Positions 44,625 to 48,868 of a DNA stretch of 64,000 nucleotides are shown piece after piece (positions within the stretch are counted from its first letter, which is position 1; every line of letters starts with the position of its first letter). The notes below the pieces were generated by a model. It did no database searches, was not told where the DNA came from, and was given only the letters and a program-made list of their open reading frames with translations. Where the stretch lies: NCBI RefSeq assembly GCF_030163795.1, contig NZ_JASJOF010000002.1, positions 186,001-250,000 of the forward strand, written 5' to 3'. The stretch comes from Roseicyclus marinus. GTDB lineage: Bacteria; Pseudomonadota; Alphaproteobacteria; Rhodobacterales; Rhodobacteraceae. The position numbers and the translations under genes are program-made.

Positions 44625-44850
44625 GGGCTGCACCGGTCTTTCTGGCTGCGTCGGGATCTGGTTGGCGATCTGGGGCCGGGTCTCTCTAGTGTCACAGGTG
44701 GGCACGGTCAACGCGCAGCCTGCGCCAAGTGGCTTGCGGTGTCCGGTTTTTATGGTGCATTCGGACCTTGCTTTGATAACGTCCGACGCGGCGGCGCCCG
44801 GCGCCTCTGGCGCGGTCCCAGAAACGTAAGACGCAGGGAATTTGAGCGAG

Positions 44851-46647
44851 ATGCAAGTGAACGGATTTCGGCGGCTGCTGGCAATCATGCTGGCGGCGAT
44901 GGTTTATGTAACGCTCGTCCTGCCGGGTCCCGCCCATGCGCAACAGGGCGTCTTCATCCAGATCGAAAGCCACGCCGCCCTGACCGAAGCCGAAAGTCGG
45001 GCGCGCGCCTATGCCCAGATCGTGCCCGATGTGAACGCGTTCCGCGCCAATACCGGGCTTTATGCCGTAGCGCTTGGCCCCTACGCGCCCAATGATGCGC
45101 AGGGGCTGTTGCGGCAGCTGCTGGCCCAAGGGCTGGTGCCGCGCGACAGTTTCGTGGTGACGGGGGAACCCTACGTCACGCAGGTCTATCCGGTGGGGGC
45201 CAATGTCTTGGCCAATCCGGCGCAGACCCTGACGGAACCCGACGCCACACCGCCCAGCATCGAGCAGAGCATCCTGCCGCAGCCCGGCACGCCCGTGGCC
45301 GAAACCGTGATCGAGGAACCTGAGGAAACGCTGCAGCAGGCCCGCCAGAGCGAGGCGCAACTGGACCGCGCGGGGCGCGATGCCCTTCAGATCGCGCTGC
45401 AATGGTTCGGCTTCTACAATTCGACGATCGACGGTGCCTTCGGCCCCGGTACGCGTAATGCCATGTCGTCTTGGCAGGCGGATCGCGGCTTCGAAGCGAC
45501 CGGCGTTCTGACCACGCGCCAACGCGCGCAATTGCTGGAGGAATACAGCTCCGAACTGGCCGCCCTCGGGATGGAAAACGTCACCGAGGAACGGGCCGGG
45601 ATCCGGATCGACCTGCCGCTCGCGATGGTGCGCTTTGCCGATTACAACTTCCCCTTCGTCCAGTACGAGAGCGTCGGTGACAGCGGGGTGCAGGTGCTGC
45701 TGATCAGCCAGCCGGGCGACCGCAACACATTGTTCGGGCTTTACGAGATCATGCAGACGCTCGAGATCGTGCCGCTGGACGGTCAGCGCGAACGGCAGGG
45801 CGACCGGTTCCTTCTGACCGGGCAATCCGACAATTTGCGCAGCCATACCGAGGCGCGGCTGACGGGCGGCGCGGTGAAGGGTTTCACGCTGGTCTGGCCG
45901 CCGGAGCGTGACGCGGAAATCGCCCGCGTCCTGCCGATGATGCGCGACAGCTTTGCCGCGCTTGACGGCGTGCTGGATCCCGGCGCGATCCCCGAGGGCG
46001 TGGAGAACGACATCGACACGATTTCGGGCCTCGACGTGCGGCGGCCCGCACGGGTGCGCTCGGGCTTTTACGTCGATGCTCAGGGCAGTGTCCTGACCAC
46101 GACCGAGGCCGTCGAGGGACAATGCGCGCAGGTGCTGATCGACGAGGCCTACGAGGCCGATATCGCCTATCGCGACGATGCGCTGGGTCTTGCCGTGCTG
46201 CGCCCGCGCCAGCGGCTCGCGCCCATCGCCTTTGCCCAGATGGCCCCCGCCCCCGGGCGGCTGCGCGCCGATGTGGCGGTTGCGGGCTTCCCCTTTGACG
46301 GGGCGCTCGGCACGGCCTCGATGGTCTTCGGCACGCTGGCCGAGTTGCAGGGCATCGACGGCGAACAGACGCTGCAGCGTCTTGCGCTGCCCACCGCCGA
46401 CAGCGAGGCGGGCGGGCCCGTCTTCGACCTGACGGGATCGGTTCTGGGGATGGTGCTGCCGGGCGTCAGCGGGGCGCGCGCCCTGCCCGAGGATGTGACC
46501 CTTGCGCTGCGGGCGGATCAGTTGGGCGATGTCTTCGCCGCGGCGGGGCTGAACCCCACGCTGTCGACACGGACCGAAACCCTCAGCCGTGACAGGCTGG
46601 CGCGGCTTGGGGCCGACATGACCGTGACCGTCACCTGCTGGAACTGA
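44851..46647 (+). CDS. Secreted trypsin-like (probably inactive) protein with peptidoglycan-binding domain
   Basis: 598 residues from the ATG at 44851 (a TTG at 44842 is possible). Signal peptide: [22 protein letters not shown]. Residues about 30-100 look SPOR-like ([20 protein letters not shown]). Residues about 180-235 form a PG_binding_1 domain ([38 protein letters not shown]). The C-terminal part is trypsin-like: [14 protein letters not shown] (about 412-425) stands where the His would be, an Asp pair follows at 442-443, and S518 lies in [12 protein letters not shown]. The catalytic His appears absent. Probably periplasmic; function unknown. Confidence 0.75.
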
Positions 46648-46657
46648 CCGGACCAAG

Positions 46658-46836
46658 AAAAAGGGGGCCGCAGCGATCGCGCGGCCCCCGGACTGGTTCC
46701 GGACAGGGAAGGTGCAAGACTTACGCAACAGTACCTGGGGTTGCACCACATGATCCGCGTTGGGACATACGCGCGGATCACGCCCCGTCCGGAAGGGGTC
46801 GGCCAGCCTCCGGGTTTGGCACATGAGAGGCCGACC
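46658..46836 (-). ncRNA. Candidate structured RNA with three-way junction and intrinsic terminator
   Basis: Read on the minus strand: stem GGTCGGCC/GGCCGACC (46829-46836 with 46797-46804). Next comes a closing stem of 8 bp, 46787-46794 with 46697-46704 (TTCCGGAC/GTCCGGAA), which encloses a 9-bp hairpin (46772-46780 with 46751-46759) and a 7-bp hairpin (46741-46747 with 46711-46717). Last is a 9-bp terminator stem (46681-46689 with 46663-46671) followed by five U (46662-46658). All pairs are perfect and properly nested, with only 2-7 nt between units. It matches no RNA class I know. It may be independent or processed from the fasciclin mRNA 3' end. Confidence 0.55.
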
Positions 46837-46838
46837 TG

Positions 46839-46868
46839 ACACCGCGAGCGATGGCTGGCGCGCGGTGT
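46839..46868 (-). terminator. Hairpin just after the fasciclin gene
   Basis: ACACCGCG (46839-46846) and CGCGGTGT (46861-46868), 8 bp perfect with a 14-nt loop, beginning 10 bp past the fasciclin stop. No U-run follows. It may stabilise the mRNA 3' end or be a processing site between the gene and the candidate RNA. Confidence 0.45.
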
Positions 46869-46877
46869 TTCGAAAGA

Positions 46878-47432
46878 TCAGTTCGCGTCGGGCAGAAGCA
46901 CCGTGTCGATGACGTGGATCACGCCGTTCGACTGGTCGACATCGGCCTGAGTGACCGTGGCCATCCGGCCCTGTTCGTCCTCGATCATGACGCGACCGTT
47001 GACCATGCGCGCGGTGAAGGTGCAGCCGCCGACGGTCTCGATCGGATGCGCGCCACCCGAGTCGCGGATCATGCCCACGATATCGGTCGAAAAGGCCTCG
47101 GCCGCGACGACGTGGCAGGTCAGGATCTCGACCAGACGGTTGCGGTTGCGCGGCTCCAGAAGGGCGGCGACCTGATCTTGCGGCAGGGCGGCGAAAGCGT
47201 CGTTGACGGGCGCAAAGACGGTGAAGGGACCAGCACTCTGAAGCGTCTCGACAAGGCCCGCGGCCTGAACGGCGGCGACAAGCGTGGTGTGGTCGGCCGA
47301 ATTGACCGCATTCTCAACGATGTTGCGCTCGGGGAACATCGGCGCACCGCCGACCATCGGAACATTCTGTGCGACGGCTGCGCCGGCGATCAGCGTGGCG
47401 GTCAGGGCCGCCGTTAAGGTCGTCTTTTTCAT
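46878..47432 (-). CDS. Secreted fasciclin (FAS1) domain protein
   Basis: 184 residues with a signal peptide (MKKTTLTAALTATLIAGAAVA-QN). One FAS1 domain: HTTLVAAVQAAGLVETLQSA, GPFTVFAPVNDAFAALPQDQ, EILTCHVVAAEAFS, VNGRVMIEDEQGRMATVTQA and SNGVIHVIDTVLLP. FAS1 proteins mediate adhesion and often accompany RskA/SigK-type anti-sigma and sigma genes, as they do here (132 bp upstream). Likely a target of that sigma factor. Confidence 0.92.
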   Translation of the reverse strand: MKKTTLTAALTATLIAGAAVAQNVPMVGGAPMFPERNIVENAVNSADHTTLVAAVQAAGLVETLQSAGPFTVFAPVNDAFAALPQDQVAALLEPRNRNRLVEILTCHVVAAEAFSTDIVGMIRDSGGAHPIETVGGCTFTARMVNGRVMIEDEQGRMATVTQADVDQSNGVIHVIDTVLLPDAN

Positions 47433-47492
47433 GTCGTCTCTCCATCTGTTGGTCTACGACCACCGCCCAAGGTCGGGGGTGGCGATGTCCAA

Positions 47493-47521
47493 ACCACGAA
47501 GAGACGGACCGGAGGGTTTCA
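47493..47521 (-). promoter_or_regulatory. Candidate ECF-type promoter for the fasciclin gene
   Basis: On the minus strand TGAAACC (47521-47515), a 16-bp spacer, then CGTGGT (47498-47493), about 60 bp upstream of the fasciclin start. AAC-containing -35 and CGT-containing -10 elements are typical of ECF sigma factors. Assignment to the adjacent sigma factor is inferred. Confidence 0.35.
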
Positions 47522-47564
47522 GAAAGATCGCAGCGACATGTTCACGCTTGCGTGAGTGCCGCGG

Positions 47565-48329
47565 TCAGAGCGCGACAAGACGGCCCAGCGCAAGGATCGC
47601 ACCGGTGGGCTGGCCGGTGGGGGAACCGCCGACGGGTTCGTCGGAAATGGCGATGGCGGCACCGGCCCCGAACCTTTGCGAGACTTCGGGCGGGGGGGTC
47701 AGCGTGGTCAGAGGCTCTTCCCCCAAGAGGCCGAGCGAGATGGGCGGCGTGCCCTTGTCGAGCACCAGCCAGACCTCTTGCGCGCGGCCGTCGGTCGGGC
47801 CGCCCGCGACACGACGAATTTGCAGGGCGCCGCCCGGTTCGCGGGTCACGGCGAGACCCAGACCCGATCCCTCGAGCGGCAGAATATGCGTCATCAGGAT
47901 CGTGCCGGGCGGGATGCCCCCGATCTCGGTCGCGCCCGCGTCCACGGGCGGCGCATCGGGCCGGTCGAGCACGGGCAGGACGGCCACGCCGACGGCCAAG
48001 GCCGCAACCGCGCCGCTGAGCGCGGTCAGGCCGCGCCAGAAAGCCACCCGATCCCACAGCGAGACGGCCGCCGATGCGGAAGGCGTCCCGGGCGCAATCA
48101 GGGCCATCACCGCGGCCTCGAGCCGCTGCGGCGGGGCAACCGGAGCGACCTCGGCTTCGGCCATGGTGGCGAAACGCGCCTGCCAATCGACCACGGCGCG
48201 CGACAGCACCGGATCGCGCCGCAGGCGCGCCTCGAACGCCGCGCGTTCGGTCCCATCGAGAAGCCCAAGCGCGTATTCCGCGGCAAGAACCTCGTCTTCG
48301 GGCATCTGGTCGTCGGGCCGCCCGGTCAT
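47565..48329 (-). CDS. Anti-sigma factor (RskA-like)
   Basis: 254 residues from the ATG at 48329, overlapping the sigma gene stop by 4 bp. The N-terminal cytoplasmic part (DEVLAAEYALGLLDGTERAA, FEARLRRDPVLSRAVVDWQA) is the anti-sigma K type without a zinc motif. A transmembrane helix (LTALSGAVAALAVGVAVLPVL) leads to a periplasmic RskA domain (VWLVLDKGTPPISLGLLGEE, AIAISDEPVGGSPTGQPTGA). It would hold the ECF sigma factor at the membrane until an outside signal. Confidence 0.9.
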   Translation of the reverse strand: MTGRPDDQMPEDEVLAAEYALGLLDGTERAAFEARLRRDPVLSRAVVDWQARFATMAEAEVAPVAPPQRLEAAVMALIAPGTPSASAAVSLWDRVAFWRGLTALSGAVAALAVGVAVLPVLDRPDAPPVDAGATEIGGIPPGTILMTHILPLEGSGLGLAVTREPGGALQIRRVAGGPTDGRAQEVWLVLDKGTPPISLGLLGEEPLTTLTPPPEVSQRFGAGAAIAISDEPVGGSPTGQPTGAILALGRLVAL

Positions 48330-48868
48330 CGCGACAGGCACTCCTTCAGGCTCAAAAGGCTGCGGCGCAGCCATGTCTTCATTGTATTGAGCGGCACATC
48401 GTGCAACTCGGCCAGTTCCTTGTAGGACTGGCCTTCCAGATAGGCCCCGCGCACCGCGTCGGCGCGATCGGGGGGCAATTCGTCAAGGCAGCCGGAGATC
48501 CGGCGCGCCTCTCCCGCAGCGATGGCGCTGGCCTCGGGCGTGGGCCCGGGTGCGGCCATCGGGGCCACGGCATCCAGATCGGCGGTCGGCGGCCCTTCGG
48601 CACGCAGGCGGTCGATGGCGTGGTTGCGCGCCACCGTGATCAACCATGTCATCGGGCTGTGGCCTGTGACCCGGTACCGGTCGGCGCGGTTCCATATCTT
48701 GACGTAGACCTCTTGCAACACCTCTTCGGCTCTCGACCGATTGACCAACACACGCAGGCAGATGCCGAAAAGTTTCGCCGAGGTTGCGCGATAAAGTTCG
48801 GAAAACGCCTCTTGGTCGCGCAAGGCGACGCGGGACAGGAGGTATTCGAGATGATCGCGGTCAGACAT
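48326..48868 (-). CDS. ECF RNA polymerase sigma factor
   Basis: 180 residues. Region 2: FSELYRATSAKLFGICLRVL, EEVLQEVYVKIWNRADRYRV and MTWLITVARNHAIDRLR. Region 4: LDELPPDRADAVRGAYLEGQ, SYKELAELHDVPLNTMKTWL and RRSLLSLKECL. Group IV sigma factor paired with the coupled RskA-like anti-sigma gene. No copy of the candidate TGAAACC promoter at a usable distance upstream, so autoregulation is not evident. Confidence 0.93.
   Translation of the reverse strand: MSDRDHLEYLLSRVALRDQEAFSELYRATSAKLFGICLRVLVNRSRAEEVLQEVYVKIWNRADRYRVTGHSPMTWLITVARNHAIDRLRAEGPPTADLDAVAPMAAPGPTPEASAIAAGEARRISGCLDELPPDRADAVRGAYLEGQSYKELAELHDVPLNTMKTWLRRSLLSLKECLSR

Follow-up and report, generated by a model that had tools for sequence, protein, structure and literature searches.

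A stem-loop array behind a fasciclin gene of Roseicyclus marinus, probably derived from a fas-msrB intercistronic element

The window analyzed here, a stretch of 64,000 nucleotides from Roseicyclus marinus, carries on its minus strand, in the order of reading, genes for an ECF sigma factor (48326-48868; NCBIfam NF009167, 274 bits with a cut-off of 265), an RskA-like anti-sigma factor (47565-48374; Pfam PF10099, E = 9.1e-14) and a fasciclin (FAS1) protein of 184 amino acids (fas, 46878-47432; Pfam PF02469, E = 2.1e-33), followed by an array of stem-loops. The array occupies a gap of 230 nt (46648-46877) between fas and a convergent gene on the plus strand (44842-46647), which encodes peptidoglycan-binding and trypsin-like domains. 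As called, the anti-sigma gene shares 49 bases with the sigma gene (47565-48868, minus strand).

Upstream of fas we found the ECF-type promoter motif TGAAAC-N17-CGT (47496-47521, minus strand); in this stricter form, with TGAAAC, it has two occurrences in the window, counted over both strands. A set of 116 fas entries in 108 loci was examined, some of the entries representing the same genome from two collections. The form GAAAC-N15..18-CGT was present upstream of fas in 97 of the 116 entries and in all eight syntenic Roseicyclus genomes (a motif count made without a shuffle control). As GAAAC-N-CGT was also found within the sigma-factor gene in 7 of 8 Roseicyclus stretches, the motif is not specific to promoters. 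Its occurrence upstream of fas points to a putative SigK/RskA-like regulon of fasciclin genes. A study on photooxidative stress (PMC7074977) tabulates fold changes (log2, stressed relative to unstressed) of 2.8 and 4.5 for RSP_1409 of Rhodobacter sphaeroides, which is related to fas of the window at least as a fasciclin gene.

An earlier note on this DNA had described six inverted repeats in the gap; all six were found where it placed them. HP1 (46839-46868, minus strand), which starts 9 nt past the fas stop codon, has arms at 46839-46849 and 46858-46868 (11 nt, 91% complementary). HP2 (46797-46836, minus strand) can form in two registers, i.e., the perfect 8-nt stem already noted (46797-46804/46829-46836) and a longer one with 11 pairs (46826-46836/46801-46811), which is the register common to the window and to G003, the closest relative by fas identity. 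Both stem-loops are defined by complementarity, fold and covariation. A third element, P3, is closed by an outer stem of 12 nt (92% complementary; 5' arm 46783-46794, 3' arm 46697-46708, minus strand) rather than the 8 nt described before; it is defined by complementarity, fold and alignment to the P3 of relatives. Two inner hairpins on the same strand, P3a (46751-46780; 46751-46759/46772-46780, 9 nt, perfect) and P3b (46711-46747; 46711-46717/46741-46747, 7 nt, perfect), were seen in the window genome only. The pseudoknot suggested between GGGG at 46783-46786 and CCCC at 46737-46740 would break P3 pairs and would thus compete with P3, as in the minimum-energy fold the GGGG lies inside the 12-bp outer stem.

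The last stem (46689-46663; arms 46663-46671/46681-46689, 9 nt, perfect) is followed on the minus strand by TTTTT, so that the terminator stem with UUUUU described previously is present as a predicted intrinsic terminator (46658-46689, minus strand; 10 pairs, 9 of them G-C). It is the sole terminator-like site in 46500-47600; shuffled sequences give 0.7 such sites, and the count alone is therefore not above chance. Only 46689-46658 combined a GC-rich stem with a U tract directly behind it, while HP1, HP2 and P3 of the window showed no U tail.

Folding of the minus strand (246 nt) yielded -127.4 kcal/mol with a z of -6.84, and none of 200 dinucleotide shuffles was as good; unpaired stretches in the minimum-energy fold were short. 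The plus strand, which the earlier note had proposed to fold as well, gave a z of -6.18. These values and the gene assignments bear out the description of a structured minus-strand RNA behind the fasciclin gene of an ECF sigma group. In a comparison with 60 shuffles per sequence, covering 464 kb of the same genome, the array (z = -5.2) showed the lowest value among 92 intergenic gaps (next lowest -4.29) and was also below all 43 coding stretches. The gaps were 150-700 nt long, those > 260 nt being represented by their best window, and genes were called by our own script. Convergent gaps of this genome are themselves structured (mean z -1.58, n = 20 including the array gap). The position of the array below all controls indicates that its structure exceeds what would follow from base composition or be found in an ordinary convergent gap. 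The array sequence has a single match in its own genome, which is not the many-copy pattern of REP/BIME elements.

Of 13 Roseicyclus genomes, counting that of the window, eight carry a close fas ortholog (83-100% identity) beside the convergent gene. In six of the eight syntenic genomes, the convergent gene is separated from the array by msrB, which is on the same strand as fas, and the array remains beside fas; relatives with msrB at this place include L058-L062 and G006. As the array stays with fas where msrB intervenes, it is best assigned to the fas transcript. The window genome and G003 have no msrB at this place; each has one SelR match, located elsewhere. Similarly, in one further relative (L064) no msrB was found within 1.5 kb, yet stem-loops follow fas. 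Together with 41 distinct fas-msrB spacers (see below), this gene order suggests that the array lies, now or in an ancestor, between two cistrons of one putative transcription unit.

As the stems have diverged, plain sequence alignment fails. With plain MAFFT alignments, RNAalifold predicted no pairs for a set of 11 sequences (A2), and the covariation term for a set of 5 (A4) was +5.72. For a close trio (A3; G006, L061 and L062), RNAalifold recovered the full structure, with 55 pairs and 3 double changes. A covariance model of HP1 and HP2 (R1) was built from this trio, and six sequences were aligned, in a way fitted to the structure, with three of the six rows being those that trained R1. In this alignment 97.8% of the HP1/HP2 cells were paired, and double changes were found at 14 of the 24 pairs (9 of 11 in HP1, 5 of 13 in HP2). 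Slid structures gave only 1-4, and none of these measures was attained by any shuffle. When the arms were set by hand and the window was compared to G003 only, HP1 showed 2 double changes and one broken pair among 8 pairs, and HP2 showed 2 double and 2 one-sided changes and no broken pair among 11. Overall, these sequence comparisons support the conclusion that the HP1 and HP2 pairings have been kept in relatives through compensatory changes.

In a search of 67 sources (763 kb), R1 found the window with 33.0 bits (E = 3.4e-4) and, also at the orthologous place, G003 (30.5 bits) and R. mahoneyensis (G002, also L058; 26.1 bits); the next score was 24.7 bits (L068), and other places reached at most 20.2 bits. 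G011 and G004 were not reported at this place in these sources, and R1 thus recognizes 6 of the 8 syntenic genomes, three of these being its own training rows. Without base pairs, the model scored 14.9 bits for the window and 13.1 for G003, and missed R. mahoneyensis. A search of whole genomes of the genus, in which 150 of 781 candidates received a score, ranked the sites of the window and of G003 first in their own genomes; among the sites listed for G002, the one behind fas was absent and weaker ones were present. Across 290 genomes of the family, matches with E ≤ 0.1 occurred in 9 genomes (best score 33.2 bits). One of these nine is a second site in the window genome; of the other 8 genomes, 4 have the R1 match on a contig different from that of the fas matches, and for the remaining 4 no fas match is listed at E ≤ 1e-40. 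As chance matches thus reach 33.2 bits, syntenic position matters in reading R1 scores. The 290-genome search, run with stricter filters, did not recover the fas site of the window itself, and its outcome does not imply absence outside the genus. Directly behind fas outside Roseicyclus, R1 matched only L068 (24.7 bits) and L075 (14.8 bits), both within the chance range. These weak HP1-HP2 matches behind fas are in a Devosia MAG (L068:6520-6608) and a Rhodobacteraceae MAG (L075:2853-2939), respectively.

The HP2 apical loop carries the motif ATGTGCCAAAC (46814-46824, minus strand), which in the form ATGYGCCAAAC occurs in 5 of the 8 syntenic Roseicyclus genomes and is missing in 3. Across the five genomes it is unchanged save for one Y, while stem pairs changed between those genomes. 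Two further candidate roles for this loop were rejected. As a genome-wide element, the motif has 3 copies vs. 1 for a reversed control, and the other two copies are outside such a hairpin. A kissing contact of the loop (CCAAACC) with GGTTTGG in the fas 5' UTR can be drawn in the window genome (G000) and in G003 and is not kept in G001, G009 and G006.

With the search filters disabled, the P3 outer stem of the window could be aligned to its counterpart in relatives (14.1 bits), the interior being replaced. With hand-set arms, this stem showed 1-3 double changes relative to five relatives, with one broken pair in one of them. A covariance model of P3 (R3) found L067 (80% fas identity) among the 67 sources at E = 0.019, matched L059/L008 weakly and did not report the window's P3 there. 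A DNA search with the window sequence in the 13 genomes of the genus gave just two matches other than the window, namely G003 (query 1-102) and a weak one to G011, on another contig, that corresponds to the terminator side (query 213-254); the junction interior had no match in the 12 other genomes. Neither this search nor the filter-off P3 alignment placed a counterpart of P3a or P3b in relatives, and the window terminator was not found in relatives either. In G003, HP1 and HP2 are kept, and in place of P3 and the terminator there is one shorter third stem-loop without a U tail. The three-way junction that had been likened to a riboswitch is therefore not supported, as its interior is unmatched in these searches, only its outer stem aligns, G003 has just the shorter stem-loop in its place, and the pseudoknot competes with P3; similarly, the compensatory changes expected from relatives were found for HP1/HP2 and not for the junction interior and the terminator, for which no counterparts were found there.

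From the 108 loci we folded 41 distinct spacers with msrB located ≤ 420 nt from fas; identical spacers were used once, near-identical pairs (e.g., L141/L143 and L061/L062) were kept, and msrB starts were inferred. All 41 spacers contained a helix of at least 9 bp, and 30 contained at least two. The median z was -2.84, with z < 0 in 40 spacers and < -2 in 31. In pairwise comparisons the spacer had the lower z in 38 of 41 cases against fas coding stretches (P = 8e-11) and in 29 of 41 against equal-length upstream stretches of fas (P = 0.001); the upstream stretches are also somewhat structured (median z -1.47). Since every spacer has strong helices, strong stem-loops behind fas are general in these loci, and within Roseicyclus the covariation of HP1/HP2 indicates that stem-loops at this place are kept by selection.

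No match to the window was found in Rfam at the gathering threshold, in line with the earlier remark that the array resembled no familiar class, and the titles and abstract openings retrieved from an open-licence library with selected terms contained no description of this array. The best sub-threshold match was BjrC68 (RF02353), an sRNA of Bradyrhizobiaceae, over 46740-46655; the aligned helix is mainly the terminator hairpin of the window, whereas the score (21.7 bits) is far below the gathering score of 39 and HP1, HP2 and most of P3 are not covered. The closest precedent is the intercistronic stem-loop of Rhodobacter capsulatus pufBALMX, an mRNA decay terminator (the pufBALMX hairpin of Rhodobacter is treated in PMC6238624 and PMC5927463). 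In both cases strong stem-loops lie between an upstream and one or more downstream genes in the same bacterial family, and by analogy unequal mRNA stability would be expected. The array differs from puf in its genes and sequence, in consisting of two or three separate elements, one of them branched, and in that the downstream gene is missing in the window genome; any effect of the array on mRNA is, moreover, a prediction.

The array is real, is partly kept by selection and is of a known kind. We consider it probable (approx. 0.6) that it represents ancestral intercistronic stem-loops of the puf type, with a stabilizing or attenuating function, that now form the 3' UTR of fas and are ended by an intrinsic terminator. 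The earlier proposal of an undescribed structured RNA thus holds for the structure and for the missing Rfam match, whereas the placement of the array in relatives, with fas before it and msrB behind, speaks for a role in mRNA stability or attenuation and not for a free-standing new RNA class.

Several other explanations were weighed. A stable small regulatory RNA, cut or terminated from the 3' UTR and acting through the HP2 apical loop by binding RNA or protein elsewhere, would account for a loop motif that persists while the surrounding stem pairs change, as well as for the predicted terminator at the end of the region. There is also a precedent in SorX, a 3'-UTR-derived sRNA of Rhodobacter sphaeroides (PMC6238624), as such sRNAs likewise combine a structured region and a terminator behind a coding gene; the present array differs in that a discrete RNA, its seed and its target are hypothetical. 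We regard this explanation as unlikely, given the three genomes without the loop motif, the shortness of the unpaired stretches, R1 matches behind fas outside Roseicyclus that do not exceed chance, and the lack of a sigma-70-like promoter in 46500-47600, which is a weak point as only 0.1 would be expected. A more specific and somewhat less probable version is that, upon ECF sigma activation, the fas transcript would release a stable 3'-UTR RNA in which HP2 offers its loop, CAUGYGCCAAAC, for contact with a protein or another RNA, and that this RNA outlived the loss of msrB; if true, the fasciclin mRNA of Roseicyclus would also serve as a stress regulator acting in trans. The array could also consist of nothing but transcription terminators, or back-ups of them, closing an operon that faces a convergent gene, an explanation about as doubtful as a small RNA, if slightly more so. 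U-rich tails were seen behind P3 in four relatives (L059, L060, L061 and L062; the tails of L063 and L067 were not clear U tracts), the window has a predicted intrinsic terminator, which looks regular, and a tendency to structure is seen in the convergent gaps of this genome. HP1, HP2 and P3 of the window, however, have no U tail and P3 is branched, which sets them apart from Rho-independent terminators, and in 6 of the 8 syntenic genomes full termination within the array would silence msrB unless this gene had its own promoter; the ECF motif, the one promoter type checked there, was present in only 1 of the 41 spacers.

A ligand- or stress-sensing attenuator of msrB, comparable to a riboswitch and decayed in the window genome, appears very improbable. 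While a branched P3 followed by a U tail precedes msrB in several relatives, R3 detects L067 at a fas identity of 80%, and a methionine sulfoxide reductase would be a plausible target for sensing, the predicted inner P3 helices differ among L058, L059, L060, L061 and L067, and L058, L060, L061 and L067 gave no Rfam match at threshold. Least probable of all is that the array arose by chance in GC-rich intergenic DNA or is a repeat element at the level of DNA. GC-rich genomes readily give strong hairpins, and chance matches to R1 were as high as 33.2 bits in the 290 genomes; however, the array's z was the lowest of 92 gaps against dinucleotide shuffles, double changes were far more frequent than in slid structures, and a repeat would not be expected to match its own genome once only.

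Under the preferred reading, i.e., that of former puf-type intercistronic stem-loops, the array would descend from intercistronic stem-loops such as those that lie between fas and msrB in relatives. The ECF sigma factor would start transcription just upstream of fas, where the motif is seen, and the transcript behind the stop codon is computed to fold into HP1, HP2 and the P3 stem. These stems would block 3'-to-5' decay, so that the fas part would accumulate, and in some relatives the U-rich tail behind P3 may stop part of the polymerases before msrB, so that more fas than msrB would be made. In the window genome, where msrB is no longer present at this place, the ordinary intrinsic terminator at 46689-46658 is predicted to end the transcript. 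The array would thus be of use for comparison, as intercistronic RNA that has outlasted its downstream gene and turned into a 3' UTR. It also suggests that fasciclin and MsrB may be expressed unequally in an ECF stress operon of the SigK/RskA-like type, an operon that was found in many of the alphaproteobacterial loci examined. In one Roseicyclus genome (L017/L026; G011:C61:142312-143400), a single open frame of 368 codons contains two fasciclin matches in tandem.
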